Source: a virus
DNA: 64,000 nt
Direction: 5' to 3' (one strand)
IMG/VR virus record: IMGVR_UViG_3300033064_001044
Span: 1-64,000 of that record
Shown piece by piece: positions 2,405 to 16,685 of the stretch. The translations under genes were made by a program, and so were the position numbers. The notes beneath the pieces were generated by a model that saw only the letters and a program-made list of their open reading frames with translations, was not told the DNA's origin and did no database searches. Every line of letters begins with the position of its first letter. Position 1 is the stretch's first letter.

Positions 2405-2459
2405 CACACTCTGTATCACCAACCTACAGAGTGTGGTGGTGTGTAGTTATCTCTACACA
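2405..2459 (+). promoter_or_regulatory. Tandem perfect hairpins ahead of the plus-strand cassette
   Basis: CACACTCTGTA (2405-2415) pairs perfectly with TACAGAGTGTG (2425-2435), and TGTGTAG (2440-2446) pairs perfectly with CTACACA (2453-2459). Both lie within 90 bases of the first cassette start codon, followed by CAATCCGCTAACGAAAGG (2464-2481), a leader sequence seen again before other cassette genes. They could be operator sites or leader-RNA structures. Confidence 0.5.
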
Positions 2460-2490
2460 AACTCAATCCGCTAACGAAAGGTAATACGAC

Positions 2491-2733
2491 ATGGCTACAA
2501 CAACACAACGCAAAACAAAAGCAGAACGCAATTACGAAAACAATACACGCGACATTGAAAACACAATCGCTGTGTTTCGTAAAACAGATAATGTTGAACG
2601 ACTTGTTCATCTCCTTGCTATGGAACTTGAACCAAATCAGTTTCGTATGTTGTTTGCTACAGAGTTTGCTTGCGTTCCACTAACTGTTGTTTATGTTGAT
2701 GAGAACGGCAATCGCATTGAGGAGAATAACTAA
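2491..2733 (+). CDS. Hypothetical protein, first gene of cassette
   Basis: 80 residues. A basic, Thr/Lys-rich start (TTTQRKTKAERN) is followed by a helical middle and a short strand region ending VVYVDENGNRIEENN. I recognise no family. GAAAGG at 2476-2481 is a plausible ribosome binding site. The stop codon overlaps the next start (TAATG), so translation is probably coupled to the following zinc-ribbon microprotein. Confidence 0.75.
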   Translation: MATTTQRKTKAERNYENNTRDIENTIAVFRKTDNVERLVHLLAMELEPNQFRMLFATEFACVPLTVVYVDENGNRIEENN

Positions 2734-2834
2734 TGTCTAAAGAAGTTACTTTCAATAATTGTTCTGTATGTGGTCGTTTAGTTATCAACGACTATTGCTC
2801 ACACCCAACTACAACAGATAAGGAAAACAAATAG
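2733..2834 (+). CDS. 33-residue cysteine-pair microprotein
   Basis: The start overlaps the previous stop (TAATG) and the stop overlaps the next start (TAGTG), which is strong support for a real gene despite its size. The sequence holds C-x2-C (NNCSVCG, residues 10 and 13) and a later C-x-H (YCSH, residues 26 and 28), so it could bind one zinc ion. Function unknown. Confidence 0.6.
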   Translation: MSKEVTFNNCSVCGRLVINDYCSHPTTTDKENK

Positions 2835-2953
2835 TGTCTATAACAATTCGTGTTGATGATGAAATAGAGATACTCGTTGATGATACAAACGCACACTTCA
2901 CACAATTAGTAACACGCACTAAACAACTACAACAACTAATCGGAGGTAAGTAA
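2834..2953 (+). CDS. 39-residue hypothetical protein, GTG start
   Basis: Begins with GTG overlapping the previous TAG. The predicted protein opens with a short strand-like segment (SITIRVDDEIEILVDD) and ends in a glutamine-rich helix (TKQLQQLIGGK). The final codons contain GGAGG, which serves as the ribosome binding site of the next gene at 2956. No family recognised. Confidence 0.55.
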   Translation: MSITIRVDDEIEILVDDTNAHFTQLVTRTKQLQQLIGGK

Positions 2954-2955
2954 TT

Positions 2956-3222
2956 ATGGGTAGTAACTTCGCAAATGATTTAGCAAGCGGTGAGTTTGTA
3001 ACTTCTTTAGAACAACAAATCTCAATTCACTTCTCTGCTAATTGTTATCCACCTGTTCCACAATTCATGGTTGATGTTGCTGTAAAAGCAATTCAATTAG
3101 TAAATGATGATGAAGGCGAAACACTTATTCAATTACCTCCCCATGTTTCGTTCCGTAATGAAAAAGAAGTATCCGCTTACAACTGTATTGACCAATTACG
3201 ATTAGAAAGTTGGACTAACTAA
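2956..3222 (+). CDS. Hypothetical protein
   Basis: 88 residues, acidic, no recognised domain. A GGAGG at 2942-2946 decides the start. A copy of the dispersed palindrome TTCTTTAGAA lies in codons 16-19 (T-S-L-E), and the neighbouring gene at 3227 has the same DNA motif at an equivalent T-S-L-E-Q. Part of a cotranscribed series with very short gaps. Confidence 0.7.
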   Translation: MGSNFANDLASGEFVTSLEQQISIHFSANCYPPVPQFMVDVAVKAIQLVNDDEGETLIQLPPHVSFRNEKEVSAYNCIDQLRLESWTN

Positions 3223-3226
3223 TCTC

Positions 3227-3496
3227 ATGAGTAAAACATACAAAGATAAAAAGTATAAGTATCTAACTTCTTTAGAACAATCAACACACTTGCGAACAAA
3301 GTGTGTAGAAACTAATTGCGAGCATTGTTACGCAATTCCAAAAACAAATCGTAGTAAGCGAGAGCGTGAAGCACTTGCTTATGAACTATCCGCTTACAAC
3401 TTACTAACAGCAACAGACGCACTACAAGAAACACTAGATGTGTTCGGGGTAGAAAAAAACAATCCGCTAACAACAACAACGAAAGAGGCTAACTAA
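3227..3496 (+). CDS. Hypothetical basic protein with clustered Cys/His
   Basis: 89 residues. The N-terminus is lysine-rich. KCVETNCEHCYAIP (about residues 26-39) has three cysteines and one histidine spaced like a small metal site. The last 20 residues (FGVEKNNPLTTTTKEAN) are encoded by the recurrent DNA motif TTCGGGGTAGAAA plus AATCCGCTA, which also precedes other cassette genes, so this tail may reflect regulatory DNA rather than protein function. Confidence 0.65.
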   Translation: MSKTYKDKKYKYLTSLEQSTHLRTKCVETNCEHCYAIPKTNRSKREREALAYELSAYNLLTATDALQETLDVFGVEKNNPLTTTTKEAN

Positions 3497-3498
3497 CT

Positions 3499-4881
3499 AT
3501 GTATTCAATCCTTATTACTTCACAAACAAATCAAGTATCAACACAACGACAGAACTTAGTTGTCGCACTATCAAGTGATGATGTTCGTGTATGGACACGC
3601 ACAACAAATGGTGGTCGCGGTGAGAGCAACGCATGGTCAGATACAACATGGCTTGATTTACAAGCAACACAGTTTGCTAATGAAGCAATCGTTGGCGAAA
3701 TACTTTCGTCACCACTAAGTCCTATTGACGAACTAGCACTAGAGAACAATGACCGACCAACAATTCTTATTCAGAAACTAACAAAGCAATTCGGTTTGCG
3801 ACACAAGACGATTACTAATCGTTTGTTAGGTGACGCAATTAGTGAAGTGGAGAGTTTGATTACTACAGACCCAAACAAATTATCAAAGTATCGTAGTGAC
3901 GGCAGAAGTGATAAGTCTGCTATTACTAACAGCACACCAACACCAACACAAATGCCAATAACTATTGTTCGCACACCTGTTGTTACACCACTAGCAAATG
4001 TAATTGCTACAGAAGTTACAGGCGATTATGTTGCTCTAATTCCAAAACCTGAAAGTGTTGCTGGTTATGTAACACGCAACTTTGCTGATGTAAATGAAGT
4101 AACTATTTACGATTACGCAATCACTCACAAGAAAAATGTTGCTATAGAAGGTGAAGCAGGAACAGGTAAAACAACTTCTGCTAAACACTATGCGTTTATT
4201 CGCAACCTTCCTTTCTATTCTTTCTCATCATCAGTTGGTGCTGAATACTCACAACTATTCGGCAAAGTTATTATTAGTGATGAAGGCAAACCAACATGGC
4301 AAGACGGAGTTATTACGCAGATGTGGAAAACAGGTGGTGTATTAGTTATTGACGAAGGTAACTTCTTACCTCCTAAAATTGCTTCATCACTTCACAATGC
4401 GTTTGACGATAATCGTATTCTTACTTTGCTTGATAAGAAGGGCGAGATTATTACAGCACACCCTAATCTCCTTGTAATTCTTTCTTACAACAACGGCTAT
4501 CGCGGAACTAATCGCATGAACGAAGCGTTCCTTGACCGCTTTACTTTCAAGTTACAGTTTGAATACGACATAAACATTGAAAAGAAGTTTATTCCTTCTA
4601 AAACTTTGTTGGAGTTGTTTGCTTCAATGCGAGCAGACGCATTACAAGGTTTGTATGAGACACCACTATCAACAAGACTTCTAAAGAACTTTGTTGAGTT
4701 GTGTGGTCTTGGTTATGAGTTTGCTGTTCAGAACTTACTCAATAACTTTGCTGATGATGAGCGTGGCTCTGTTGCTTTGTTGTTAGAAGCAAAGCGTTAC
4801 AACATTATGTCTGAACTTGGATTTGCTGTTGAGAACATTGTTGTTGAACAACAAGATGAAGCAGAACTTCTAAATGCGTAA
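3499..4881 (+). CDS. MoxR/CobS-type AAA ATPase
   Basis: 460 residues. Residues 1-190 are a variable region without recognised motifs. The AAA module follows: Walker A GEAGTGKT (218-225), Walker B VLVIDE (281-286), and a DRF segment with the likely sensor/arginine-finger residues (NEAFLDRF, 341-348). This is the AAA_5/MoxR layout. Such ATPases usually remodel or insert metal into a target together with a VWA-domain partner, and exactly such a partner follows at 4932. The pair resembles cobaltochelatase CobS/CobT or MoxR/VWA systems; the substrate is unknown. Two TTCTWWAGAA-type sites lie in or near the gene. Confidence 0.85.
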   Translation: MYSILITSQTNQVSTQRQNLVVALSSDDVRVWTRTTNGGRGESNAWSDTTWLDLQATQFANEAIVGEILSSPLSPIDELALENNDRPTILIQKLTKQFGLRHKTITNRLLGDAISEVESLITTDPNKLSKYRSDGRSDKSAITNSTPTPTQMPITIVRTPVVTPLANVIATEVTGDYVALIPKPESVAGYVTRNFADVNEVTIYDYAITHKKNVAIEGEAGTGKTTSAKHYAFIRNLPFYSFSSSVGAEYSQLFGKVIISDEGKPTWQDGVITQMWKTGGVLVIDEGNFLPPKIASSLHNAFDDNRILTLLDKKGEIITAHPNLLVILSYNNGYRGTNRMNEAFLDRFTFKLQFEYDINIEKKFIPSKTLLELFASMRADALQGLYETPLSTRLLKNFVELCGLGYEFAVQNLLNNFADDERGSVALLLEAKRYNIMSELGFAVENIVVEQQDEAELLNA

Positions 4882-4931
4882 GCACTTATTCGGGATAGAA
4901 AAAAACAATCCGCTACTACGAAAGGTAACAA

Positions 4932-6941
4932 ATGACTAGCGTTATGCCCAATGTATTACACGAACAAACTTCTATAGAAACTGAATTAGCAAACAGAAAG
5001 CGTGACCGCTTACAACGATTAGCACAGGTGTTTAGTCGTGCTAACTCTGTTCTTACTTCACGACCAATCGCTGTTCATGTTGTAAGTGAGCCACACAAGA
5101 ACGCACCTGCTTGGTCTAGTGCTAGTGATGTGTGGTTCAACTTAGACAAAGTGCGTGATGAGTTTGACGCACAATCTTTGTTATCACTACAGGGTTTGAA
5201 CTTCCATGAGTTATCTCATGTTCGTTACACACCACGCAACGGCTCGGAGATTTGTCGTTGGGTTATTGAGAACGATAAGTGGCAAGCGTTCAATGCGTTA
5301 GAGGACATGAGAATTGAGGGCTTGTTAGTTTCTCGCTTCCCTTCAATCGCTAACTGGCTTACCGCAACTGTTCTTGATTACTTAGTAAGAGAACCCGAAG
5401 GACTAGGAACTTTGTTCGCACTTGTTCGTGGTCGTAGATACTTACCTGTTGAGTTACGCAAAATCGCAAGAGAAAACTATTTGCGACAAGAGGACATAGA
5501 TGAGTTGTGTGATGTTGTAGATAGTTACCGCACTTTGTTATTCCCTGAGGATACAGAAGTTGCTAAAGAACTTATTGCTCGTTACCACGACTTGTTACAG
5601 AACTTACCAATCATTGAACAACCAACTGGAAGTGGAACTGGTAAAGGTGATGATGAGGGAACTGTAATTGTTCAAGTGCGTATTCACGACCCTCATGGTC
5701 ACGCAACACGACCAACACAAGGTGTTGAGTCAAGCAACTCACGACCTGCTTCTAAAGAGGAACAGCGTCAAGACAGAGATAATCTAAAGAAGCAAGACAA
5801 ACAAGATGAAGCAGAAGTATCTAATAAAAAACCTGATGTTGTTATAGATGTTCATGTTGATAACACACCACAGGACACAACAGATACAACTTCTAATCAA
5901 CCTTCTAAAGAGAAGTCTGATACACCTGATGTTGCTGATAACTTTGATGATGTTGATGTTGATGTTGATGATTATGACTTTGATGATTACAACGACACAC
6001 AACCAACACCACCAAAAGATAATGGCAACTCATGGGGAACTGGTAGTGAAGGTGACGACAACAAGCCTGACGCTATCAACGAACAGATAACTGATTTGCT
6101 TGATGAAATTGTTGATGAACTTTCTAAAGAACTTGACCGACTATCTATTCAGGTCAATGGTTCTCCATTGTTAGAAGGCAACAAAACAAAAACACCACAG
6201 CAAATTGACTACACACCAAAACCTGTTCCACAAGATTTGTTCTTAGTTTCTAAAGCGTTTGCTAGAGAACTAGAACGCTTGCGAGCAAAGCATGACCCTG
6301 CTTGGGATAAGTTTGTTGATAGTGGTCGCTTCAATGTAAATCGTTATCTCAATGGTGGTGAGTTTGATACTTTGTTTGATGAGTGGTCAAGTGGTCGTGA
6401 TGATGTAACTTCTATAGAAGCCGTAATCTGTTTAGATTATTCAGGTTCTATGGAAGGCGATAACGCGACTTCTGCTTACCAATCTATGTGGGCAATCAAG
6501 AAGGCACTAGAACAAGTCAATGCTCGCACAACAGTTGTGTTGTTTGACGATAGAAGTCCAAGACTTCTTTATGGTGCTGACGACAAAGCAGGAACAGTAA
6601 TTCGTGACGCTGGAACTGCTTATGGAACTGACCCTACTGACGCACTTCTTTATTCTCAAAATGTATTAGCAACAACTGAACAGCCAATCCGTTTGTTATT
6701 TATGATTACTGACGGGATTTGGCAAAGCAAAGTTGCGGAGGAAAGTGTTAGAGAGATGAAGCGAGCAGGTGTTGTAACCTGCCAAGCACTTATCGCTAAC
6801 TACGAATTACCTAAAGAGTATCTAAACGAGAACCGACATGAGTTTGAGTTAGTGTCTCATGTTCGTAGTGCTAAAGATGTTCTCGCTTTAGGTAAGGACT
6901 TAGTGCGACTATCTATCGCACGACAGTTAGTTACTCACTAA
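4932..6941 (+). CDS. VWA-domain protein with HExxH metallopeptidase-like N-terminus (CobT-like)
   Basis: 669 residues. The N-terminal domain has HELSH (92-96) followed by ALEDMRIEG (122-130), the zinc-metallopeptidase-like arrangement seen ahead of VWA domains in some AAA/VWA systems. A long, acidic, Asp/Pro/Lys-rich linker (about 225-385) is probably disordered. The C-terminal VWA domain has a complete MIDAS: DYSGS (502-506), a Thr in GTDPTDAL (about 566-573) and ITDG (about 592-595). It lies 50 bases after the MoxR gene, with a TTCGGGATAGAAA leader motif between them, and it contains two palindromes. Likely to work as a complex with the ATPase. Confidence 0.85.
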   Translation: MTSVMPNVLHEQTSIETELANRKRDRLQRLAQVFSRANSVLTSRPIAVHVVSEPHKNAPAWSSASDVWFNLDKVRDEFDAQSLLSLQGLNFHELSHVRYTPRNGSEICRWVIENDKWQAFNALEDMRIEGLLVSRFPSIANWLTATVLDYLVREPEGLGTLFALVRGRRYLPVELRKIARENYLRQEDIDELCDVVDSYRTLLFPEDTEVAKELIARYHDLLQNLPIIEQPTGSGTGKGDDEGTVIVQVRIHDPHGHATRPTQGVESSNSRPASKEEQRQDRDNLKKQDKQDEAEVSNKKPDVVIDVHVDNTPQDTTDTTSNQPSKEKSDTPDVADNFDDVDVDVDDYDFDDYNDTQPTPPKDNGNSWGTGSEGDDNKPDAINEQITDLLDEIVDELSKELDRLSIQVNGSPLLEGNKTKTPQQIDYTPKPVPQDLFLVSKAFARELERLRAKHDPAWDKFVDSGRFNVNRYLNGGEFDTLFDEWSSGRDDVTSIEAVICLDYSGSMEGDNATSAYQSMWAIKKALEQVNARTTVVLFDDRSPRLLYGADDKAGTVIRDAGTAYGTDPTDALLYSQNVLATTEQPIRLLFMITDGIWQSKVAEESVREMKRAGVVTCQALIANYELPKEYLNENRHEFELVSHVRSAKDVLALGKDLVRLSIARQLVTH

Positions 6942-6999
6942 TGATTACCTTCGGGATAGAAAAAACAACAACCAACCTTCTAAAGAAAAGAGGCAACAA

Positions 7000-7590
7000 A
7001 TGAAACTATCAGAACTAAAAGTCGGAAATGTTTATGGAATTGTTCCTTCATGGGGTTACAACAATTCAAGTGCTAGAAAGACAGCAACAGTAAAAGAAAA
7101 TGATGTTGAGAAAGCAACAATTATTTCTCTTGATAAGTATGAGTATCAGGCTTCACAAAGATACCAAGACCAAACTAAGTTTGTGTTAGCAAAACAAGGT
7201 GATAGGTCTGTTGGTGTAGTTGTAAAAGCGGTAGATAAAAATGGTAATGACTTCTACTGGACAGCACGACTAGCAGACATTGTTGAGGAGTGGTCTAAGT
7301 TAGAACCAATTTGGGCAGACAAAAACAAACTGGAACAAGAACAACAACTCATTGAGGAAGCAAAACAAGCAAAAGCAAAAGCAATTAGACGACAAGCAGA
7401 GGAGTATGTAAATCGCGCTAATGTATCTATTCCAAAATCTGTAACAGATTTAGTTGGTAAGCGTTGCGGTAATGTAACTATTCATACAACAGGTTATGGA
7501 GAGGACACGACAGCCGTAGCAACACTTTCGTTATCAGACTTGGAAACTCTTATTGAACTCGCTTATGACGGAAAGGAACAGGTGGCGTAA
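7000..7590 (+). CDS. Conserved actinophage hypothetical protein
   Basis: 196 residues. The N-terminal half (MKLSELKVGNVYGIVPSWGY, then strands to about residue 95) looks like a small beta barrel. It is followed by a glutamine- and lysine-rich coiled coil (about 108-145) and a short C-terminal domain. The opening motif is familiar from unannotated actinophage proteins. It follows the AAA/VWA pair after a 58-base gap that carries the TTCGGGATAGAAA motif and a palindrome, and may belong to the same functional group. Confidence 0.75.
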   Translation: MKLSELKVGNVYGIVPSWGYNNSSARKTATVKENDVEKATIISLDKYEYQASQRYQDQTKFVLAKQGDRSVGVVVKAVDKNGNDFYWTARLADIVEEWSKLEPIWADKNKLEQEQQLIEEAKQAKAKAIRRQAEEYVNRANVSIPKSVTDLVGKRCGNVTIHTTGYGEDTTAVATLSLSDLETLIELAYDGKEQVA

Positions 7591-7763
7591 TGAAACAATA
7601 CACAATCACAATTTCAGATGAGCAATACTCGTTACTAATCAAAGCACTTGGTCGGCATAAGTCATGGCTCAATGACGGAGGGTTCTTTCGCTCTGCTCAT
7701 AGTGCTAGTGACTTACTTGCTCACATAAAAAACAATGTAAAAGAGGAGGCGGTGTCTTTATGA
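7590..7763 (+). CDS. 57-residue hypothetical protein
   Basis: The start overlaps the previous stop (TAATG at 7588-7592) and the stop overlaps the next ATG (ATGA at 7760-7763). The sequence MKQYTITISDEQYSLLIKAL is typical of a short strand-helix start in phage proteins; the rest is helical with several His/Ser. No family recognised. The GAGGAGG near its end serves the next gene. Confidence 0.65.
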   Translation: MKQYTITISDEQYSLLIKALGRHKSWLNDGGFFRSAHSASDLLAHIKNNVKEEAVSL

Positions 7764-8056
7764 AACTTCTAAATAAGTTACGCAAACAAAAAACAAAAAA
7801 GAACTTCTTAGCAAACATAGAGGAATACTTGCTAAAGAAGGACATAGTAGAAACTTGTGTATCTGCTTTGTCCTTCACCAAACCTGAACTAGAGGAGGAA
7901 GTTGTAGAACACTTATTCCTAACTTCTTTAGTCGCGTTTGTTCCTGTAGAAATCTTAGAAGGTATCAGAGATGAACTAACTAATGACGCAGATAAAAAAG
8001 TAAAAGAAGTTGTAGGTATGTATGAGTCTTTCAACATGAGGAGTAACCATGAATAA
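7760..8056 (+). CDS. Hypothetical helical protein
   Basis: 98 residues with a very basic first 16 residues and an acidic, wholly helical remainder (for example ELEEEVVEHLF). AAAGAGGAGG ahead of ATG 7760 is a strong ribosome binding site. It overlaps the next gene by eight bases. Function unknown. Confidence 0.7.
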   Translation: MKLLNKLRKQKTKKNFLANIEEYLLKKDIVETCVSALSFTKPELEEEVVEHLFLTSLVAFVPVEILEGIRDELTNDADKKVKEVVGMYESFNMRSNHE

Positions 8057-8234
8057 TCTAACTCGCAGAGGTTGGGTAGTCCTAGTAATTATTCCTTCAC
8101 TATTACTAGGACTACTTATTGCTTATGTAACAAGAGATGTTTGTTATGTAGGAACTGATAAGTCGTATGCCAATGCTATTGGCTATGGCTCATGTCTAAA
8201 GAACATTGACGAAGTAATCAAACAAGGGAGATAA
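8049..8234 (+). CDS. Small single-pass membrane protein
   Basis: 61 residues. A basic start (NNLTRRG) is followed by one hydrophobic helix (about residues 8-27, VVLVIIPSLLLGLLIAY) and a short outer segment with two cysteines (CYVG, SCL). This predicts an N-in membrane protein. A holin role cannot be excluded but it is not near the lysozyme-like gene. RBS GAGGAGTAACC precedes the start. Confidence 0.65.
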   Translation: MNNLTRRGWVVLVIIPSLLLGLLIAYVTRDVCYVGTDKSYANAIGYGSCLKNIDEVIKQGR

Positions 8235-8236
8235 CT

Positions 8237-8581
8237 ATGTATGAAGGTTATGAAAAACCAAAAGAAAGATGTGTAATTGCTACACACAGTAAAGGTAGTA
8301 AGGCTGTTCGTATTAGTTATACAGACTATACATACGCTGTTATAGAAGGTGGCTCTGATACTTACAACGGACAAGCATGGGCAACCTTTCATAGACGAGA
8401 GGACTTAGCAATTAGAAAGCAAAGGGCTATGTCTAAGAACTACCCACAGTATTCCTTTGAGGTTGTGGCTACACAAGATGTAAGAAGTAGTGAAGGTCGC
8501 AGACTAAAGAGACTTCTAAAACTAGAAAAGATACAACGAGACATAAACACAGTAACAGAAACCGAAATCGTTTCGGGATAG
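8237..8581 (+). CDS. Hypothetical protein
   Basis: 114 residues, mixed strands and helices with a basic C-terminal helix (RRLKRLLKLEKIQRDI). No family recognised. The stop codon lies within the motif TTCGGGATAGAAA (8572-8584), read here in a frame that gives V-S-G-stop, so the DNA element is conserved independently of the protein. GGGAGATAACT ahead of the ATG is the likely RBS. Confidence 0.7.
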   Translation: MYEGYEKPKERCVIATHSKGSKAVRISYTDYTYAVIEGGSDTYNGQAWATFHRREDLAIRKQRAMSKNYPQYSFEVVATQDVRSSEGRRLKRLLKLEKIQRDINTVTETEIVSG

Positions 8582-8610
8582 AAAATCCGCTAAGAGAAAG
8601 AGGGAACACC

Positions 8611-9291
8611 ATGACCACCCAAACAAAACATAAGCAAGCAGGTTCTAAAGCAGGTAATCAGTATGGAACTTACAAGGTTCGCACAATTACAACAGCACAA
8701 CAGAACTTCCTAAAGAAGTTACTGGAACAAAAGAAACACGACATAGATGTATCCGCTATCAACTTTGATGAAGTCAATGTTCAATGGGGAACAGAACTCA
8801 TTGAGACACTTATCAAGGCGGAGGATAAATACGAACGCCTAGCAAGTGAGCGACAAGTAGAGTATGTAAAGTCTTTAGCAAACAATCGTATTGGCGGAGA
8901 TGTCGTGCTTCAATCGCTAAATGATAATTCAACTGCTAAAGAAGTTTCTGTATGGATTGAGCAACTACAAAACGCACCATACGCAAAGACAATTACAATC
9001 GCAGAAACAGGTGCGTATCGTTACAACGGAATTGTTTATTCTGTTCGCAAAGGTCGGCAGAGTGGCAACTGGCAAGTGTTCTCAATCAACCCTGAAACAA
9101 ACAAATGGGAATACAACAGAACCGCATACAAGTATCTGTATGAACTAAAAGATACTGACCGCCTAACTCTCAATGAAGCAATAGAAGCAAGTGGGCAGAC
9201 AGGCTCTTGCGTTCATTGTGGGCTAACACTTACAGCATTGAAGTCTGTTGCTGGTGGCATGGGTTCTACCTGCGCTAAGAGGTATCACTAA
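8611..9291 (+). CDS. DUF6011-like C-terminal zinc-binding protein
   Basis: 226 residues. The C-terminus, CVHCGLTLTALKSVAGGMGS followed by TC (about 199-220), matches the short metal-binding signature C-x2-C-G-x-L-T ... G-x-G-x-x-C found as DUF6011 in actinobacteria and their phages. Residues 20-130 are helical, and a Tyr-rich strand region (about 130-180) precedes the motif. DUF6011 has no established function; nucleic-acid binding is a guess. RBS GAGGGAACACC. Confidence 0.75.
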   Translation: MTTQTKHKQAGSKAGNQYGTYKVRTITTAQQNFLKKLLEQKKHDIDVSAINFDEVNVQWGTELIETLIKAEDKYERLASERQVEYVKSLANNRIGGDVVLQSLNDNSTAKEVSVWIEQLQNAPYAKTITIAETGAYRYNGIVYSVRKGRQSGNWQVFSINPETNKWEYNRTAYKYLYELKDTDRLTLNEAIEASGQTGSCVHCGLTLTALKSVAGGMGSTCAKRYH

Positions 9292-9590
9292 TGCCAACTG
9301 CTAAAGAACTTTCAAAGCAACTAAAAGAGTGGTATCCAAAAGGTGATGAACAAGTAGCACTTATCGCAGGGCTATTAGATAAGAGCGAAATCTATGATGT
9401 TATTTACAACTCTTATGATGATGTTGAGGACTACGAAGTTACTGATGAGATGTTTCAAGATGTTGTAAGTAAAGTCGCAAACTGCGATAACGAACTCAAT
9501 GCCCTTTGGGAAGTTATCAAAGATGTTATTACTGGTGAATACGAGAAGCGTATTCACTTAGAAACCGATAACGAACTATGGGAGGCGTAA
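9291..9590 (+). CDS. Acidic hypothetical protein ending LWEA
   Basis: 99 residues, strongly acidic (for example YDDVEDYEVTDEMFQD). The start overlaps the previous stop. The final codons CTATGGGAGGCG encode LWEA and at the same time provide the ribosome binding site for the next start, a junction repeated after several following genes. A DNA-mimic role is conceivable from the charge but unsupported. Confidence 0.7.
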   Translation: MPTAKELSKQLKEWYPKGDEQVALIAGLLDKSEIYDVIYNSYDDVEDYEVTDEMFQDVVSKVANCDNELNALWEVIKDVITGEYEKRIHLETDNELWEA

Positions 9591-10090
9591 TGAATAACTT
9601 TGATAACGAAGCAGATTGGTTGTGGGATTACAAAAACGGATTTCGTATTCCTTCACAGTTTGGTTTCGGGATAGAAATTACACCAACACCCGATAAGCAA
9701 GACAGTAATTGGTATTCAGGTGAAGTAGCAACTCTTACCAATAAAGAACTAAATCACACAATAAGTATCTGTGCGGTAGGTGAGATTATGATTATTTACA
9801 GACCTGATACTTCTAAAGACGAATACGAAACATTTTATTCTCTAAATGATTTACCGAAAGAACAATTCGTCAATGACGCTTCTGTTCAAAGAGCGTTAGA
9901 GATTGAACGCAAATTAGATTACACACACAACAACTGGTATGAGTGCTTTGATGAACTAACACAAGAGTTTGGTGATTGCGTTCATCACGAAATACAAGAA
10001 GCACTTGATTGTGCCGTTTCACAACTATGCCAACACCGCTTGATTGAGTCTGTATTAGACCAAACCGATAAAGGACTATGGGAGGAGTAA
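9590..10090 (+). CDS. Acidic hypothetical protein ending LWEE
   Basis: 166 residues from ATG 9590, which overlaps the previous TAA and follows GGGAGGCG; an in-frame ATG at 9578 would place the RBS inside the gene and is less likely. Acidic and Trp-rich (DWLWDYKNGF at the start, NNWYECFDEL later). The 13-mer TTCGGGATAGAAA is at 9665-9677, read as F-G-I-E. No family recognised. Confidence 0.7.
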   Translation: MNNFDNEADWLWDYKNGFRIPSQFGFGIEITPTPDKQDSNWYSGEVATLTNKELNHTISICAVGEIMIIYRPDTSKDEYETFYSLNDLPKEQFVNDASVQRALEIERKLDYTHNNWYECFDELTQEFGDCVHHEIQEALDCAVSQLCQHRLIESVLDQTDKGLWEE

Positions 10091-10093
10091 CTT

Positions 10094-10429
10094 ATGACTA
10101 CAGTAAAAAACATGATAAAAAATCTAAAGGAGTATGACGAGAACGAACACATACTGGTTCTTTATTGGAGTAAAGAACTTGGGTATCAGTTTGTAGAACA
10201 CCTGTTACAAGATTTGAAACATGAACACAAACTAAGTGATGAACAAATGACTAAGTTATTTGATGAAACTTGGGAGTATGTAACAGACATGGAGTATGAA
10301 ACACCTGATGTTGGAGACGCTCTAATAAGTAATCTAAGAGAAGGTTTAGAGGAAAGCATTACAGAACTTCTAAAAGAAGTTGTGGATAAAGAACTAGAAA
10401 TTGTTGATAAAACACTATGGGAGGAGTAA
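10094..10429 (+). CDS. Acidic hypothetical protein ending LWEE
   Basis: 111 residues, highly acidic and helical (EESITELLKEVVDKELEIVDKTLWEE at the end, broken here only by description). It shares the terminal LWEE/ribosome-binding-site junction with its neighbours and may be a distant paralogue of 9291-9590 in charge and layout, though the sequence similarity outside the tail is weak. Function unknown. Confidence 0.7.
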   Translation: MTTVKNMIKNLKEYDENEHILVLYWSKELGYQFVEHLLQDLKHEHKLSDEQMTKLFDETWEYVTDMEYETPDVGDALISNLREGLEESITELLKEVVDKELEIVDKTLWEE

Positions 10430-10433
10430 CACT

Positions 10434-10799
10434 ATGAAATACGCACACATGATTATCGGAGTTCCTGATGAGCAAGACCCTGAACAAGTTGCTTTAGAAA
10501 TCTTGGCAGACTTCTCGGAGAACAACTACGACAGCAATCCTGAACAACTGGAACAAATCTTTGCTCGCATTGTTGGAGTCAATTCAGACAATGATGTTCT
10601 TTACATAGGACAAGACGGCAACTACGGAGACGCTAGAGATTTATGTCTATTAGACACTTCTTTATGGTCTAACGCTGATGAGGAAGCCTTCTCTGAAATC
10701 GCAGAGAACGATAGCGAGTTAGCAAGTTTCGCTTCACAATTCAATGGCGACCCCTCTCTTACCCCTGCTAGATACTTATTAGGAGACACACATGAGTGA
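10434..10799 (+). CDS. Acidic hypothetical protein
   Basis: 121 residues from ATG 10434, chosen because GGGAGGAG sits 5-12 bases upstream; an upstream in-frame ATG at 10401 lies inside the previous gene. Very acidic, with Asp/Glu spread over the whole length. It overlaps the next gene by eight bases (ATGAGTGA). Third in a row of acidic proteins. Confidence 0.7.
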   Translation: MKYAHMIIGVPDEQDPEQVALEILADFSENNYDSNPEQLEQIFARIVGVNSDNDVLYIGQDGNYGDARDLCLLDTSLWSNADEEAFSEIAENDSELASFASQFNGDPSLTPARYLLGDTHE

Positions 10800-11427
10800 T
10801 ACACCCGAAATCAAATTAGTAAAGACTTCAAGAGGTTCTACCTATCGCATGAAAAAGAAAGAGATAGTCAGGGTTCAGAAATCCAATCTGACTTTGCCTT
10901 ACGAAGTTGGCAAACTTCTTAGGGGATTGGCTATGCCTCAAAAGAAGGCTTACTGCTTACTTCTTATAGAAGGTAGTTGGACACTACAAAGTATCGCTAA
11001 CGAACTTCTTTGCCACAGACAAACTGTTCTTGATTACACAAGGTCTAAAGAAGCACAAGACGCTGATGTATTAGCAAGCGTTTGGGATTTACCAATTCCA
11101 AAGTTGCCAAGAGTTGTTGTTGGTGAAGTCTATGAAAAAGATGTTGTTGAGCCTAACGCTGATGTTCTAAAGAGGTTATTAGAACTTCAACCTTTGGCAC
11201 AGAAGGTTCGTAGTTACAGCCCAAAGTTTCGTGAGGAAGCAGAGGAATACACAAAACTATTAGCAGAGGAGATTGGTCGTGGAGTAACTGCGTATCAACT
11301 TTCTAAAGAACTTGGTATCACCATTGGTGCTATCAATTTCCGTCTCACACGATACGGATACAAGCCATTAGGCAAAGGCAAATCAAAAGCCTATAACACT
11401 ATTCTTGAACAAAACCGACCACAATAA
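10792..11427 (+). CDS. Helix-turn-helix DNA-binding protein
   Basis: 211 residues, basic. Two HTH-like units are visible: WTLQSIANELLCHRQTVLDYT (about residues 63-83) and VTAYQLSKELGITIGAINFR (about 165-184), the second followed by RYGYKPLG. The two-HTH layout could fit a transcription regulator that binds paired or palindromic sites. It is therefore one candidate reader of the dispersed palindrome TTCTWWAGAA or the operator at 14440-14459; this is inference only. Confidence 0.7.
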   Translation: MSDTPEIKLVKTSRGSTYRMKKKEIVRVQKSNLTLPYEVGKLLRGLAMPQKKAYCLLLIEGSWTLQSIANELLCHRQTVLDYTRSKEAQDADVLASVWDLPIPKLPRVVVGEVYEKDVVEPNADVLKRLLELQPLAQKVRSYSPKFREEAEEYTKLLAEEIGRGVTAYQLSKELGITIGAINFRLTRYGYKPLGKGKSKAYNTILEQNRPQ

Positions 11428-11438
11428 GGAGGCAACAC

Positions 11439-11894
11439 ATGATTACAAAAGAACTAGAAACAACTACAACGACAACTAAATGGCAAGGAATAACTTTCGG
11501 GATAGAAACTATCTTGTCTGACTACGACCAAATAGTTATAGATGTTCCTGTATTTCAAAGCGGTTACAACAACACTACTAATAATTGGGAAGTTGTGGCA
11601 ACAGGTGAAACTCGTAAGTTTCGTTTAGAAAAAATTGAATACAGTTTGGTAAATAGAAAGAACGACTCTGTTGGTATTCACTCTTTGTATGGTAGAGGTT
11701 TCACAAAAGCCAACACCCTAAGGGTTCAAGGCAATTCTTTCTATAATGAACACATAACTGATGAAATCCTTGCTCAAATCCCTGACCACTATCACGACAA
11801 AGCAAAAGAACAGTTTTTACTAACTGCTAAAGAACTTACAGAGCAGATGAACACAATAAATGCCAACGGGCTATCACTAACACCACAAAGATAG
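11439..11894 (+). CDS. Hypothetical protein
   Basis: 151 residues with a poly-Thr N-terminus and mixed strands, then a helical C-terminal third. No recognised family. AAGGAGG six bases before the ATG gives a clear start. The motif TTCGGGATAGAAA occurs at 11496-11508, again encoding F-G-I-E. Confidence 0.7.
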   Translation: MITKELETTTTTTKWQGITFGIETILSDYDQIVIDVPVFQSGYNNTTNNWEVVATGETRKFRLEKIEYSLVNRKNDSVGIHSLYGRGFTKANTLRVQGNSFYNEHITDEILAQIPDHYHDKAKEQFLLTAKELTEQMNTINANGLSLTPQR

Positions 11895-11902
11895 GAGGAA
11901 CT

Positions 11903-12520
11903 ATGCCAAATCATTGTATAAGCACACTAACAATTACTGGTAACTCAAAACAACTACACAAACTTCTAAAGCAAGTTGAAATAACAAAATCGGAAGCAAC
12001 TCCAAGCCATGATGAACGAGAGTTCTCATGCCACAAGATTATTCCGCGACCTGCTAAAGAAGATGATAATTGGTATAACTGGAACTCGGAGAACTGGGGA
12101 AGCAAGTGGGATTTAGCAGACTTTGAGTGGATAACTAACGATTGGGAAAACGGATTTGTTCATGCTTCTTTTTGGACAGCGTGGAGTCCTATTCCCCTTG
12201 TGTTAGAGAAGTTATCTAAACAACATAAGTCTTTAGAAATGACTTACCGCTTCCATGATGAAGGGGCTGGTTTCTACGGCACTTACTCTTTCAAGGGTGG
12301 AGTGCTAACAGTTGATGAGGAAGGTGAGTCCTTCACCTGTGATGTTAGAACTCGCTACTGGGGATACTCGGAACACCATTACTGTAAAGAGTGTGAAAAT
12401 CACTTTGAGTGTCCTGATGAAAACTACGAAGGCTCTATTGAGGAAATCTGTGAGGATTGTAAGACTTCTTTAGAAGCAACAGAGAAAGACTTATGGGAGG
12501 AGAAAGAAAGTGTTGCGTGA
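11903..12520 (+). CDS. Api92-like (DUF1281-type) ferredoxin-like protein with zinc ribbon tail
   Basis: 205 residues. MPNHCISTLTITGN at the start, IIPRP near residue 50, DNWYNWNSENWGSKWD (about 56-71), and FWTAWSPIP (about 92-100) match the signature of the Api92/DUF1281 family found on phages and mobile elements. A C-terminal extension carries two C-x2-C pairs (CKECENHFEC and ICEDC, about 159-186), likely a zinc ribbon. The family's biochemical role is not established. RBS AGGAGG; ends with the LWEE junction and a short extension. Confidence 0.8.
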   Translation: MPNHCISTLTITGNSKQLHKLLKQVEITKSEATPSHDEREFSCHKIIPRPAKEDDNWYNWNSENWGSKWDLADFEWITNDWENGFVHASFWTAWSPIPLVLEKLSKQHKSLEMTYRFHDEGAGFYGTYSFKGGVLTVDEEGESFTCDVRTRYWGYSEHHYCKECENHFECPDENYEGSIEEICEDCKTSLEATEKDLWEEKESVA

Positions 12521-12779
12521 ATTACCTATGCTTCAACTCAAACGAGAACCGAATAAAAAAGGTGGGGGAAGTTACCTATCAAAAGACAAGCGTATCTATG
12601 TCCTCCGAAATGAGGACAACCTATGGGCGTGGGGATACCACGACTACAACGATAAGGGTGAGTTCATTGGTAGTCGTAATGGTGACGACTCTTTGTATGG
12701 CGCAAAGACACATTGTGTTGAAGCCATAAACAAAGTTCTTTATGAACAAGCCTATGACGAAGCACTATGGCAAAACTAA
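12510..12779 (+). CDS. Hypothetical protein, GTG start
   Basis: 89 residues. GTG at 12510 is the likely start because GGGAGGAG lies just upstream inside the previous gene. A central WAWGYHDYNDKGEF and a helical end (EAINKVLYEQAYDEALW) suggest a small alpha/beta fold. No family recognised. The stop overlaps the next ATG. Confidence 0.65.
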   Translation: MLRELPMLQLKREPNKKGGGSYLSKDKRIYVLRNEDNLWAWGYHDYNDKGEFIGSRNGDDSLYGAKTHCVEAINKVLYEQAYDEALWQN

Positions 12780-12910
12780 TGGATTACGAAACTGTAATTC
12801 TAATAACTGGGCAACCTTCTTTAGAAGGTATCAACCCGAAGTTGAATAAAGGAATAAATCAAGATAACCTGAGGTTATCCATAACAGAGGAGGCAACAAC
12901 ATGGCAATAA
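12779..12910 (+). CDS. 43-residue hypothetical protein
   Basis: Begins at an ATG overlapping the preceding TAA and ends inside the next gene. A hydrophobic start (YETVILITG) is followed by a polar remainder. A palindrome (CTTCTTTAGAAG) spans codons P-S-L-E-G. GAGGAGG near its 3' end serves the next gene. Real but marginal; only the coupled overlaps support it. Confidence 0.45.
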   Translation: MDYETVILITGQPSLEGINPKLNKGINQDNLRLSITEEATTWQ

Positions 12911-13104
12911 AACATTACCTAGTGGAATTGGCAACGGAAGTTCCAATCACTATCAACGATAAGAACCTAAAAGACAATTCAATTTATGAAACTGTCTTAG
13001 AGGCTACGCAACATTACATAAACGATTACATAGAAACTGATGAGCAATTCTTTGTAAAGATTGTTGCGGAACAAACACATGAGGAGAGTGATACAAATGT
13101 CTAA
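12901..13104 (+). CDS. Hypothetical small protein
   Basis: 67 residues, acidic, probably one beta hairpin followed by a helix. RBS GAGGAGGCAACAAC is strong. It overlaps the next start by eight bases. No recognised family. Confidence 0.65.
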   Translation: MAIKHYLVELATEVPITINDKNLKDNSIYETVLEATQHYINDYIETDEQFFVKIVAEQTHEESDTNV

Positions 13105-13855
13105 CAAGACACTACTACGCAAGAAAGCATTGGCAAAGAAAAGAATTGCGTCTAAGGTTTGGCGTGACTCTTTCAAAGAGTTGAAGTCGCGTTATCCTGT
13201 TGATTGGGAAGCGTTACACACAACAACAAGTGGAGATAGAGAAGCAACAAGACGAGAACTAAGACGCTTGTATCCTGCTGACTTCGCTTCTATCTACACA
13301 CGCCACGCAAAACAAAACGGCATAACGCCACACATCACCAACGAGATACATCAGGAAGGAGGTAGTCCAATCCAATCACAAAATCTGATAATCAAACAAA
13401 CAGTAAAACAATCATCACCATCAGACTTCACAAAAGAAGGTTACTCTCTAATTGCTAGAGAACTTATGCCTTCTCCAAGCGGAGGAGTGTTCTCGTCAAT
13501 GAGCCGAGTTCTATTCGCTGATAACATAGACGGCACAGAGTTTGAAGCCGTTGGTTGTAACAAGTGCTTCATGTTGTTTAGAAATCTCCAAGCAACAGCA
13601 CACCATGTCGGTAGAGTCCATAACGGCAAAACTGGCATACACAAAAAAGCAAAAGCAAAGGCAAAGCCAATCGCAAAGCCAATCGCAAAGCCTTCAACAC
13701 AGCCTGTAGTATCAACAACACCGCTTATCCCTACTGGCATTGACCCTGTAAAAGCCATTACAGACCTTGTAGCACAACGACAGTATTGGGAAGCACAAGC
13801 AAAGGCGTATGAGGAACAACTCAACGCAATCCGCAAAGCCTTCAACGGCAAGTAA
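13097..13855 (+). CDS. Basic protein with C2H2-like finger and Ala-Lys repeats
   Basis: 252 residues from ATG 13097 (GAGGAG upstream; the longer in-frame start at 13061 lies within the previous gene). The N-terminal 90 residues are very basic and helical. GCNKCFMLFRNLQATAHH then VGRVH (about residues 153-175) is a C2H2-like zinc finger. A repetitive segment KAKAKAKPIAKPIAKP (about 182-199) follows, encoded by near-identical 12-base units at 13645-13692, then a coiled coil. It is probably a DNA- or RNA-binding protein; role unknown. Confidence 0.75.
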   Translation: MSNKTLLRKKALAKKRIASKVWRDSFKELKSRYPVDWEALHTTTSGDREATRRELRRLYPADFASIYTRHAKQNGITPHITNEIHQEGGSPIQSQNLIIKQTVKQSSPSDFTKEGYSLIARELMPSPSGGVFSSMSRVLFADNIDGTEFEAVGCNKCFMLFRNLQATAHHVGRVHNGKTGIHKKAKAKAKPIAKPIAKPSTQPVVSTTPLIPTGIDPVKAITDLVAQRQYWEAQAKAYEEQLNAIRKAFNGK

Positions 13856-13868
13856 TCTATTCACCAAC

Positions 13869-13905
13869 AAGTTGATAGGGGCAGTTGGTTTGCCCCTATC
13901 AACTT
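13869..13905 (+). terminator. Perfect 15-bp hairpin between genes
   Basis: AAGTTGATAGGGGCA (13869-13883) pairs perfectly with TGCCCCTATCAACTT (13891-13905) around a seven-base loop. No T tract follows; instead the palindrome TTCTATAGAA (13904-13913) overlaps its end. It may be an attenuator, an mRNA-stability hairpin or a terminator that needs a factor. Confidence 0.5.
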
Positions 13906-13924
13906 CTATAGAAGGGAGTATCCA

Positions 13925-14158
13925 ATGGATACTACGAAAGAAAAACAAACAGCAGAACAACTAATCATGGTGTCTCATAGCCTGAAACTATCAAGCGACA
14001 TCTTTATTGAATTAGTTGAAAAAGGTTATCGCCCTGAAAACATGGAGAACATCTATGCGTTCATGTTCGGTATGAGAACTACGGCTGACGCACTAGGTAA
14101 TCTAATAGAAAGCCAAAAGGCATTACTGGTAGCCTCTAAAGACCTTGATAGCCTATAA
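13925..14158 (+). CDS. Hypothetical small helical protein
   Basis: 77 residues, all-helical prediction, with an acidic and Leu-rich pattern. RBS GAAGGGAG upstream. The preceding 15-bp hairpin and palindrome suggest separate regulation from the cassette. No family recognised. Confidence 0.65.
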   Translation: MDTTKEKQTAEQLIMVSHSLKLSSDIFIELVEKGYRPENMENIYAFMFGMRTTADALGNLIESQKALLVASKDLDSL

Positions 14159-14174
14159 AGAAAGGACAACAACT

Positions 14175-14381
14175 ATGGATTGGCTTACTACTAACGAAGT
14201 ATCCGAAAAGACAGGATTGACTAGAGATACTCTAAAGACTTATCTAAGCAATAAGTCAATGCCTCAACCTGACCACTACTTTCAACGAACACCTGTTTGG
14301 AAAGAGGAAACAATCAACGAGTGGATAACGACAAGACAAAAGACAAAGCCTGTTCCTTCTAAAGAAGGTTCAGACTTCTAA
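14175..14381 (+). CDS. xis: Excisionase/MerR-like HTH protein
   Basis: 68 residues from ATG 14175 (AAAGGACAAC upstream). The pattern WLTTNEVSEKTGLTRDTLKT, then YLSNKSMPQPDHYFQRTPVWKEETINEW, is the winged-helix fold of the HTH_17/AlpA-Xis type: tip residue at PDHYFQR and the closing W-x-x-x-x-I-x-x-W. Its position two genes before the integrase suggests a recombination directionality factor, but a plain transcription regulator is possible. It is followed by a strong terminator, so it is the last gene of the cassette transcript. Confidence 0.7.
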   Translation: MDWLTTNEVSEKTGLTRDTLKTYLSNKSMPQPDHYFQRTPVWKEETINEWITTRQKTKPVPSKEGSDF

Positions 14382-14390
14382 ATAACTTAG

Positions 14391-14431
14391 AAGGGGAACG
14401 AGTTGCTTCGGCAACTTGTTCCCCTTTTTTT
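14391..14431 (+). terminator. Strong rho-independent terminator
   Basis: AAGGGGAACGAGTTGC and GCAACTTGTTCCCCTT form a 16-base stem (one G-U) closed by a TTCG tetraloop and followed by a run of seven T. This is the clearest terminator in the window; it ends the plus-strand cassette and insulates the integrase unit. Confidence 0.95.
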
Positions 14432-14439
14432 GTGCCCAA

Positions 14440-14459
14440 AAGTTACTGGTCAGTAACTT
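14440..14459 (+). promoter_or_regulatory. Perfect palindromic operator overlapping the integrase promoter
   Basis: AAGTTACTGGTCAGTAACTT has two perfect 9-base arms with a 2-base spacer. It ends on the -35 hexamer of the predicted integrase promoter, as expected for a repressor or autoregulatory site. Confidence 0.75.
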
Positions 14460-14486
14460 GGCTTTAGTCCTACTCGTTGGTAACAT
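14458..14486 (+). promoter_or_regulatory. Predicted sigma-70-type promoter of integrase
   Basis: TTGGCT (14458-14463) and TAACAT (14481-14486) are separated by exactly 17 bases. The expected transcription start falls at about 14493, just upstream of the RBS GAGGAGAGG and ATG 14510. A terminator lies directly upstream. Confidence 0.6.
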
Positions 14487-14509
14487 AGGGGTTGAGGAGA
14501 GGAACTCAA

Positions 14510-15835
14510 ATGGCGTATGTAGTTACCCGAAATAAACGGCATACAGGCTATTACCGCAGAAGCGGTAAGGTTCAGAGTGCTGGAACTTATGGCACTAGAG
14601 CCAAAGCCTTGAACTCTGCCCTGCTCGCAGAGGAAGGCATAGTCTCAACTAACCCCGAACTAATTACAACCCTTGAAGCCTATGTAAAAGATTGGCTCAT
14701 CAACCGAACAGATGTTCGGGTAATAACAAAGAAAACTTATGCCATAACTCTAAAGAAGTATGCCCTACCTTCTTTGGGTCATAGACAAGTAACAGGCATA
14801 ACTCGTAAAGATGTTAGGCAACTTATAGAGAAGTTGCTCTCCGAAGGTATAAGTCCTGCCACAGTTTCCCATGTAAAAACAGCGTTGGGTTCTGTGTTCA
14901 GGCAACTCGTTGAGGAAGAACAAATCCCCGCAAACCCTACGCATGGCATAAAGATAAAGACTTCTAAAGCAGACCCCACAAGTTCTTTAGAGCCTTCAGA
15001 TTTCAAAAAAATTGTTGAGTCCCTGGAAACTGAAGGGGCAAAGATGTTTGCTCAATTCTTAGTTGCTTCAGGCTGCCGATTTGGAGAAGCCACAGAACTA
15101 AGAGTAAAAGACTTCAACTTCAAGTCAAAAGAAGTTTATGTTCGTAGAACTGTGAGTGATGTAGGCAAAGCCTTGAACAATGGAAGCCGTTTCCTTATCG
15201 TGCCTTCAACAAAGAACGGGCATAAACGCACAGTAATCATCAACAAAAGCCTCAATGAAGCCCTAAAGAAGTATGTTCGGGATAGAAAATTAGGGGCTAA
15301 TGATTTGCTGTTTTCCAAAGCCTTAGTGATAGAGTTTGGTAAAATAGTGACCACAGGTAGTCAATTGGAAAGGACTAAGAAGCCCTATACCGTTGGAAGT
15401 AGACTATTCCAACACGCAACTCCGTACTCGTACAATGTCGGTGGGTGTAGGTGTGACCTGTGTAAACAAGCGGTCAGTAAGTATCGCAAACAATACAGAG
15501 AGGACAAATCAAAAGGTAGAGAAAGCCTAAGCCAAAGCCTTAGTCAAAGCCAAAGCCTTGACCAAAGCCTTGACCAAAGCCACCTCAGTCGTGACAAGTG
15601 GAGAACCACTTGGAACAAAGCCATAGAAAAGTCAGGTATTGGTTGGTATCCAAGAACGCATGACCTAAGACATGCCAACGCTACTCAACTCCTAAAGAGT
15701 GGGGTAGATGTGCATGAGGTCAAAGAGCGTTTGGGTCATCAGTCAATCACAACGACAGAGCGGTATCTACACCGTCTCCGTCACCAAAGTTCAAATGCTG
15801 CGGAAGCAGTAAATGATTACTTTGGGGAAAGGTGA
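14510..15835 (+). CDS. int: Tyrosine integrase with cysteine-motif insertion
   Basis: 441 residues from ATG 14510 (GAGGAGAGG upstream). An Arm-type N-terminus and core-binding domain (about 50-145) precede the catalytic domain: R190 (CRFGEATELR), Lys in TKNGHKR (about 235-239), H384-x-x-R387 (THDLRH), H410 (LGHQS) and Tyr419 (TERYLHR), so the active site is complete. Unusually, the region before box II holds a C-R-C-x-x-C motif (313-318) followed by K/R-rich sequence and a low-complexity Ser/Gln/Leu repeat (about 339-359) encoded by tandem CAAAGCC-type units. The enzyme should catalyse site-specific integration and excision with the nearby excisionase-like protein. Confidence 0.92.
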   Translation: MAYVVTRNKRHTGYYRRSGKVQSAGTYGTRAKALNSALLAEEGIVSTNPELITTLEAYVKDWLINRTDVRVITKKTYAITLKKYALPSLGHRQVTGITRKDVRQLIEKLLSEGISPATVSHVKTALGSVFRQLVEEEQIPANPTHGIKIKTSKADPTSSLEPSDFKKIVESLETEGAKMFAQFLVASGCRFGEATELRVKDFNFKSKEVYVRRTVSDVGKALNNGSRFLIVPSTKNGHKRTVIINKSLNEALKKYVRDRKLGANDLLFSKALVIEFGKIVTTGSQLERTKKPYTVGSRLFQHATPYSYNVGGCRCDLCKQAVSKYRKQYREDKSKGRESLSQSLSQSQSLDQSLDQSHLSRDKWRTTWNKAIEKSGIGWYPRTHDLRHANATQLLKSGVDVHEVKERLGHQSITTTERYLHRLRHQSSNAAEAVNDYFGER

Positions 15836-15841
15836 GAAACT

Positions 15842-16405
15842 ATGAAACTAACACAACGCGGAAAAAAAGTAGTTGTTATCGCAACTATAACAGTAGCAAG
15901 TTCATTGTTCTTTAGCGGTTTTGCAATTGCTAAAGCACTTGAACCTTCGAAGGTAGTGGTTGTACAGCCAGTTCAACCCGCCCAATCAACAGTCGAGAAA
16001 TCTCTAAAAGTAAGTCCGTCAGATAAGTTGGAAGAGTTGAGGCAAAAGCCTCAACTAACAAGACTTGAATTGAAAGCCTTACTAAAGGAAGTTGGGTTTG
16101 AGGGTAAAGCCTTGAGCCAAGCATGGGCTATTGCTATGCGTGAGAGTCGTGGTCGTTCTATTGCCTTCAATGGTAATGAAGAGACAGGCGATAACTCTTA
16201 TGGACTCTTTCAAATAAACATGATTGGGAAAATGGGAGATGTACGCAGAGATAAGTTCAGCATGGTATCTAATGCAATGCTTTTAGACCCTGTGACAAAT
16301 GCCCAAATTGCTCATTACATGAGCAAGGGTGGTGAAGATTGGTCAGCATGGAAAGGTATGACACCTCGTGCTAAAGAATGGCTAAAATCTTTTCCTAAAA
16401 ACTAA
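15842..16405 (+). CDS. Membrane-anchored lysozyme/transglycosylase-like protein
   Basis: 187 residues. One N-terminal hydrophobic helix (about 9-31), with basic residues before it, anchors or exports the protein. The C-terminal half is a lysozyme-like fold: Glu101 in AMRESRG, then GDNSYGLFQINM (117-128) and a late NAQIAHYMSKGGEDWSAW, as in SLT/goose-lysozyme-like domains. It probably cleaves the glycan strands of peptidoglycan outside the membrane. It sits seven bases after the integrase rather than with tail or lysis genes, so it could be the endolysin, a SAR-type endolysin or a host-surface-modifying factor. A terminator follows. Confidence 0.8.
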   Translation: MKLTQRGKKVVVIATITVASSLFFSGFAIAKALEPSKVVVVQPVQPAQSTVEKSLKVSPSDKLEELRQKPQLTRLELKALLKEVGFEGKALSQAWAIAMRESRGRSIAFNGNEETGDNSYGLFQINMIGKMGDVRRDKFSMVSNAMLLDPVTNAQIAHYMSKGGEDWSAWKGMTPRAKEWLKSFPKN

Positions 16406-16411
16406 ATAAAG

Positions 16412-16446
16412 GAAAGCCCTCCTGTGTTGGTGACAGGAGGGCTTTC
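16412..16446 (+). terminator. Rho-independent terminator-like hairpin
   Basis: GAAAGCCCTCCTGT and ACAGGAGGGCTTTC form a perfect 14-base stem with a seven-base loop, followed by only a weak T run (TGTT). It ends the integrase-lysozyme transcript. Confidence 0.8.
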
Positions 16447-16481
16447 TGTTAGGATTACAGTTCTACAAAAGGAGAAAGCCT

Positions 16482-16640
16482 GTGGGCAAGCACTTAGATA
16501 AAATACAAGCAGCATTATTAGTTAGACAAGCAAGTATGCCAAAAGGAGAAGGATTCAAAAAACCTGGAAGCATGAACCCACGAAAAACGGGTTACATGAG
16601 CATAAGGTCAGACCAAGCAAAGAAGATTTTAGGTAAGTAA
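16482..16640 (+). CDS. 52-residue basic protein, GTG start
   Basis: GGAG at 16471-16474 precedes GTG 16482. The product is basic and Gly/Lys-rich (MPKGEGFKKPGSMNPRKTGY) and is bounded by two terminators, which supports a separate transcription unit. No family recognised. Confidence 0.55.
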   Translation: MGKHLDKIQAALLVRQASMPKGEGFKKPGSMNPRKTGYMSIRSDQAKKILGK

Positions 16641-16648
16641 TAATTACT

Positions 16649-16685
16649 AAAGACCCATTAGCCAAGTGCTAGTGGGTCTTTTTTT
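16649..16685 (+). terminator. Rho-independent terminator
   Basis: AAAGACCCATTAGC and GCTAGTGGGTCTTT form a 14-base stem with one G-U pair, followed by seven T (from 16679). It ends the small gene at 16482. Confidence 0.9.

Follow-up and report, generated by a model that had tools for sequence, protein, structure and literature searches.

The repeats most like those reported here are the stoperators of cluster A mycobacteriophages, sites of 13-14 bp that have no dyad symmetry, are oriented with transcription and follow a consensus specific to the subcluster (PMC6550527, PMC9283540). In stoperator systems, one of the sites is a genuine operator located at the early promoter (PMC9934374). A cluster A phage carries 20-30 such sites across its genome, mostly in intergenic positions, and its repressor, homologous to L5 Rep, is monomeric, combines a helix-turn-helix with a stoperator domain and, once bound, halts elongation.

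The locus examined here lies in the window, i.e. the whole 64,000-nucleotide stretch that was analysed, which belongs to a phage record 65,427 bases long with a GC content of about 41%. The ribonucleotide reductase (RNR) encoded in the window shares 76% identity with its counterpart in Actinomycetia phage DSL-LC01, which comes from a lake metagenome, and the phage therefore probably infects freshwater actinobacteria; the integrase has a single distant match among genome contigs, so that we assigned no host from this gene. The repeats sit in a rightward operon which runs from a MoxR-like ATPase gene through VWA, g7000, DUF6011 and g10792 genes to an integrase gene, and outside this operon nearly all genes are leftward.

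Copies of the 13-mer in the window

The sequence TTCGGGATAGAAA is present in six exact copies on the plus strand, and a seventh copy, TTCGGGGTAGAAA, differs from it by one mismatch (Table 1). The full record contains the same six exact copies and no others, and spacing between copies in the window varies from 1.1 to 3.8 kb. When up to two mismatches are allowed, 10 matches are found in 64 kb, as opposed to 1.29 expected from shuffles (maximum of 4 in 100 shuffles), so that copies with 0-1 mismatch are far above chance; the reverse strand of the window contains none at this stringency. The shuffles and the strand search agree with the first-pass annotation, which had reported this set on one strand in excess of chance, and its reading frames for the in-gene copies and its placement of two copies between genes are correct as well. 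It had further listed a partial form near position 43406: the match, TACGGGATAGAAA, is indeed present at 43405, but it runs antisense inside a leftward gene, and we treat it as background.

Table 1. Coordinates of the 13-mer sites and of conserved operon genes in the window, with the state of each site in related phages
Feature	Position	Strand	Context or assignment	Equivalent position in relatives
Site 1	3443..3455	+	TTCGGGGTAGAAA; within g3227 (FGVE), about 55 bases upstream of the MoxR gene	Unchanged in L007 (93%-identical relative)
MoxR/CobS-like AAA ATPase gene	3499..4881	+	Pfam AAA_5 6e-18, PHROG 249; operon backbone	
Site 2	4889..4901	+	Between genes, 43 bases upstream of the VWA gene start	Counterparts in L007 (TTCGGGATAGAGA) and L027; class-B spelling in L055 and L022
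VWA-domain (CobT-like) gene	4932..6941	+	Operon backbone	
Site 3	6950..6962	+	Between genes, 50 bases upstream of g7000	Counterparts in L007 and L027; classes B, E, F and G have their own spellings at -33 to -49
g7000	7000..7590	+	Conserved operon gene, function not assigned	
Site 4	8572..8584	+	Spans the g8237 stop codon (VSG-stop), 39 bases upstream of the DUF6011 gene	TTCGGAATAGAAA in L027; TTCGGGATAAAAA in L028
DUF6011-type gene	8611..9291	+	Conserved in operon	
Site 5	9665..9677	+	Within g9578, read FGIE	Retained in L027 (TTCGGGATAGAAG); one base different in L007 and L025 (TTCGGGCTAGAAA); no counterpart in L026 and L028
g10792	10792..11427	+	Two helix-turn-helix segments; candidate factor	
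Site 6	11496..11508	+	Within g11439, read FGIE	Retained in L007 and L025; position empty in L027, L026 and L028
Tyrosine integrase gene	14492..15835	+	Pfam Phage_integrase 6e-28; last site-bearing gene of the operon	
Site 7	15276..15288	+	Within the integrase gene, read VRDRK in a different frame	Exact in L007, L025 and L027; TTCGGGATAAAAA in L028; class-own spelling at integrase +666 to +696 in other classes

Other sequence features were seen in the same region. The words CTAAAGAA and TTCTWWAGAA are over-represented on both strands of the window and of all relatives, independently of the 13-mer; CTAAAGAA occurs 7.5 times per 10 kb in the window record (both strands), compared with 0.5 expected from base composition, and up to 19 times per 10 kb in the L007 contig. 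The largely noncoding segment 295-2490, which separates divergent operons, is conserved in most of the relatives searched with blastn and contains copies of GGCTACTGY, the last two of which are separated by 201-226 bases in each of the 14 contigs tested; it is possibly an RNA gene or an attachment or origin region. An Rfam search of window positions 1-20,000 yielded no matches. The integrase has a Ser-Gln/Ser-Leu repeat (LSQSLSQSQSLDQ...) at 15525-15590, which is variable in length and differs among phages.

Arrays and spellings in related phages

Operons syntenic with that of the window (MoxR-VWA-g7000-DUF6011-g10792-integrase) were found in 23 phage sequences, several of them closely related, and in each of them a single short asymmetric sequence is repeated as an array, with 3-8 sites detected per operon and nearly all copies confined to it. 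Counting one consensus per contig with a maximum of one mismatch in 17 contigs, we found 84 in-operon copies oriented along transcription and none opposed to it, while shuffles at the same threshold give a chance expectation of 0-0.5 copies per whole contig. Position weight matrix scans agree with the consensus count (0-0.3 hits in a permuted-matrix control), and an unsupervised screen of over-represented words brought up the array in most relatives, in different spellings. Since the consensus words were chosen from the same data in which they were counted, it is the strand bias, the homologous positions and the shuffle controls that carry weight.

Spelling is uniform inside one phage and differs among phages (TTCGGGATAGAAA, TTCGGGATAAAAA, TCCGCMACAAAAA, TCCGAAGGGACAAA, TCCGAGGTGCAAA, TCCGACCTGCGAAA and others); with several contigs being near-duplicates, the distinct spellings number about 8-10, and at least eight. 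Homologous positions are often reused across phages, and the spelling does not track backbone relatedness. L007, the 93%-identical relative, has all of the window sites, of which two intergenic ones read TTCGGGATAGAGA and one in-gene copy reads TTCGGGCTAGAAA. In L027, whose operon proteins are mostly 50-80% identical to those of the window, the VWA, g7000 and DUF6011 leader sites and the g9578 and integrase sites recur, and there is one new site. In L028 the DUF6011 leader and integrase sites are spelled TTCGGGATAAAAA, and a third place has GTCGGGATAAAAA; one and the same G-to-A change is found in two homologous sites and one further copy. L026/L055, which is about as related to the window as L027, has no TTCGGG motif and carries CCGC(A/C)ACAAAAAA at the VWA, g7000 and DUF6011 leaders. 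We consider it highly probable that the array and the coordinated change of its spelling are genuine features of these phages. Because relatives exchange all of their copies for another spelling, the replacement of the whole set suggests a reader co-evolving with its sites.

Few copies lie outside the operon; mainly in class B, where G002, G007, G012 and G015 have a few extra ones in leftward regions, these mostly point along the leftward genes. Copies co-directional with the leftward RNR gene were also observed, TTCGGGACAGAAA in L027 and TTCGGGACAAAAA in L028, which differ by the G/A substitution that also distinguishes class A from class A' sites; at 18365 the window has TTCTGGAGAGAAA on the RNR-gene strand.

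In the catalogue of 113 sites, which counts near-duplicate contigs as well, 62 fall inside genes; of the others, 37 are no more than 130 bases from a start codon and 14 lie elsewhere between genes. Certain places recur across spellings: leaders of VWA, g7000 (-33 to -54) and DUF6011, and, within genes, MoxR +396 to +438, VWA +817 to +960, g12901 +69 and integrase +666 to +696. The leader sites are 27-61 bases upstream of start codons. Where a phage has in-gene MoxR and VWA sites, the leader sites of these genes tend to be missing, and by this replacement the spacing stays at about 2 kb; it is more even than random, with a mean coefficient of variation of 0.43 versus 0.87 for random placement in ten phages, which are related to each other. 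Among in-gene sites phase 0 is the most common, and all three phases are present; moreover, the same tetrapeptide (SEVQ, SDLR or SEGT) is specified by identical codons in unrelated proteins, out of 96-432 possible encodings. Since all phases occur and the codons coincide in unrelated proteins, the sequences indicate that selection acts on the nucleic acid.

As read from the DNA, then, there is an array with a single orientation, near-confinement to one operon and even spacing, in which the in-gene copies are maintained as nucleic acid and homologous positions are taken over by other spellings. The view that the motif is kept as DNA or RNA and is tied to the direction of transcription, put forward from the window alone, is borne out in relatives, and at the equivalent positions, where the first-pass annotation had proposed to look for it, the motif is conserved.

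Candidate factors and modes of action

Our preferred interpretation, which we hold tentatively and rate as slightly short of an even chance, is that the 13-mers are sites of a sequence-specific factor acting in transcription elongation and working like mycobacteriophage stoperators. They would constitute the window's set within a directional array that extends, throughout the phage family, across the rightward integrase-bearing operon. A trans-acting factor would bind the asymmetric site in DNA and stop or slow RNA polymerase approaching from one side, so that the operon would be silenced in a polar manner in the lysogen, and the sites and the factor would change specificity together between phages. 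It is possible, although we find it doubtful, that the arrays represent a form of elongation-stage control so far undescribed in uncultivated actinophages, in which evenly spaced directional sites, restricted to one operon and for the most part within coding sequence, all change specificity together under an unrecognised reader, thereby giving each phage a transcriptional code of its own on that operon.

Among the genes considered as encoding the reader, g10792 is the sole operon gene found in all array-bearing loci whose contigs span its position and missing from L032, L041 and L043, relatives that have no array. It has two helix-turn-helix segments, as might be found in a monomer reading an asymmetric site; the first resembles sigma-70 region 4, and Sigma70_r4 matches 16 of 22 g10792 relatives (best E-value 3.9e-6). 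Its predicted fold, a two-domain model with a pTM of only 0.48, yielded no significant match in PDB. We rejected g10792 as the specificity reader, as neither its recognition helices nor other residues track the spelling, and its relatives occur in large Microbacterium phages with operon repeats unrelated to the 13-mer. In these phages (L113, L114 and L115) the g10792-type protein ends the first rightward operon, and their own co-oriented repeats look promoter-like. Another gene, g11903, does track the spelling among the window phage, L027, L028 and L055, but it is missing from the class-B phages G012 and L044; it is dispensable, and it was likewise rejected as the reader. A genome-wide search for gene families that track the spelling yielded an HNH-like protein and some further candidates, all of them unlikely. 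In G002, a family of proteins of about 240 aa (G003 75884-76615) is found in four places, and is possibly a mobile or homing gene.

The main rival is action at the RNA level, in which the motif would serve in the nascent transcript as a nut-like antitermination site, or as a site for a phage RNA-binding protein, and would allow transcription of the long operon to continue; each phage would then possess a small N-like protein of its own that evolves fast. Lambdoid nut sites are transcribed, directional and phage-specific in their specificity, and N/boxB pairs turn over in specificity phage by phage. The sites of the array share these properties, as every one of them is transcribed and co-directional; besides, the A-rich 3′ end of the motif would be single-stranded, and a small protein could escape homology search. 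Known nut sites, however, are few and promoter-proximal, whereas the 13-mers are far more numerous and recur at intervals of about 2 kb as far as the integrase gene near the end of the operon; nor are they hairpin-based, as no hairpin is common to the sites. A strong hairpin (about -17 to -28 kcal/mol) does form at the VWA-g7000 junction in the relatives checked (L007 at about 6640-6680 and equivalents), but it is present with or without the 13-mer and is missing in the window, and we rejected the notion that hairpin and motif form a single element. On balance, RNA-level action appears rather unlikely.

The even spacing, together with the location of several sites shortly ahead of genes, would also fit cleavage of the operon mRNA at the motif by a phage or host endoribonuclease. 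We regard such processing as improbable, since more than half of the sites are in genes, where cuts would destroy the message, and coordinated changes of spelling would demand a cutter with a switchable 12-base specificity.

An operon-internal promoter had been among the functions initially suggested, and phage-specific promoter families do exist. Recognition by a phage-modified polymerase or a sigma-like factor would agree with the distance of leader sites from start codons and with the Sigma70_r4 match in g10792 relatives. In every class, however, the motif consists of one asymmetric block, about 12-13 bases long, with neither a conserved companion box around it nor a TANNNT at a fixed distance, which makes a sigma-70 promoter, with its two hexamers 16-18 bases apart, unlikely. 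A promoter scan found fewer sigma-70-like sites than in shuffles. In-gene copies are distant from any downstream start, and g10792 does not follow the spelling. Internal promoters are accordingly disfavoured and are given little probability; the other initial suggestion, a protein-binding leader, is too narrow a reading for a set with most of its members inside genes.

Sites for a host factor, such as a directional DNA translocase or a host regulator differing by host genus, would let the spelling follow the host, in line with its lack of connection to backbone relatedness and with the failure of any phage gene to track it cleanly; confinement to one operon and even spacing would not be expected of genome-wide host sites, and we think this quite improbable. 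Least probable of all is a base-pairing phage small RNA that terminates transcription at the copies, as in phage P4 immunity: one RNA would make the co-evolution of many sites easy, and the class-B phages G002 and G012 do contain the motif in reverse complement, 2.7-3.4 kb upstream of MoxR, but no exact complement of at least 10 bases to the class A motif was found in the window record, which may be incomplete, or in the 99.8-kb L027 contig, and in a GU-tolerant search of the class-A leader the cognate complement was no better than non-cognate motifs; on both grounds an antisense guide RNA was rejected.

Implications and comparison with described repeats

If the sites are stoperator-like, repression at the level of elongation would extend beyond mycobacteriophages, MabJ prophages and allied phages to uncultivated actinophages, and the different spellings on a conserved operon would amount to a natural experiment in the joint change of specificity by a regulator and its set of sites. 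If they are not, the array would point to some unfamiliar treatment of long phage transcripts. In both cases it yields a prediction as to which of these phages should fail to respond to one another's regulator.

Comparison with other directional repeats of actinobacteriophages shows that the Start-Associated Sequences (SAS/ESAS) in mycobacteriophages of cluster K and Microbacterium phages of cluster EF are likewise 13-bp asymmetric repeats in one orientation, and GGGATAGGAGCCC has GGGATAG in common with the window motif. SAS, however, occupies the ribosome-binding position immediately before the start codon, whereas the present leader sites are located farther upstream and most sites are in genes; this difference in position rules out identity with SAS. 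Repeats of cluster EC Microbacterium phages, 22-30 bp upstream of starts, resemble our leader sites in their distance from the start, although in the portion of that account available to us they are reported as intergenic, and in-gene copies or a coordinated change of spelling are not described.

In comparison with stoperators of the cluster A mycobacteriophages L5, Bxb1 and TipsytheTRex and of MabJ prophages, the present sites are nearly restricted to one operon and in the majority intragenic, rather than genome-wide and mostly intergenic, and their spelling is uncorrelated with backbone relatedness. No copy that could act as an operator is found at the promoter presumed to lie within window 1132-2490, and no homologue of the cluster A repressor was recognised among the genes scanned, a subset of those in the genomes. 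We do not claim membership in this group; at best, the sites work like stoperators. The resemblance nevertheless covers the asymmetric site of 13-14 bp in many copies, the single orientation relative to transcription (all 84 in-operon copies here), the consensus that differs among related phages, with at least eight spellings in one family, and the occurrence in actinobacterial phages with an integrase.
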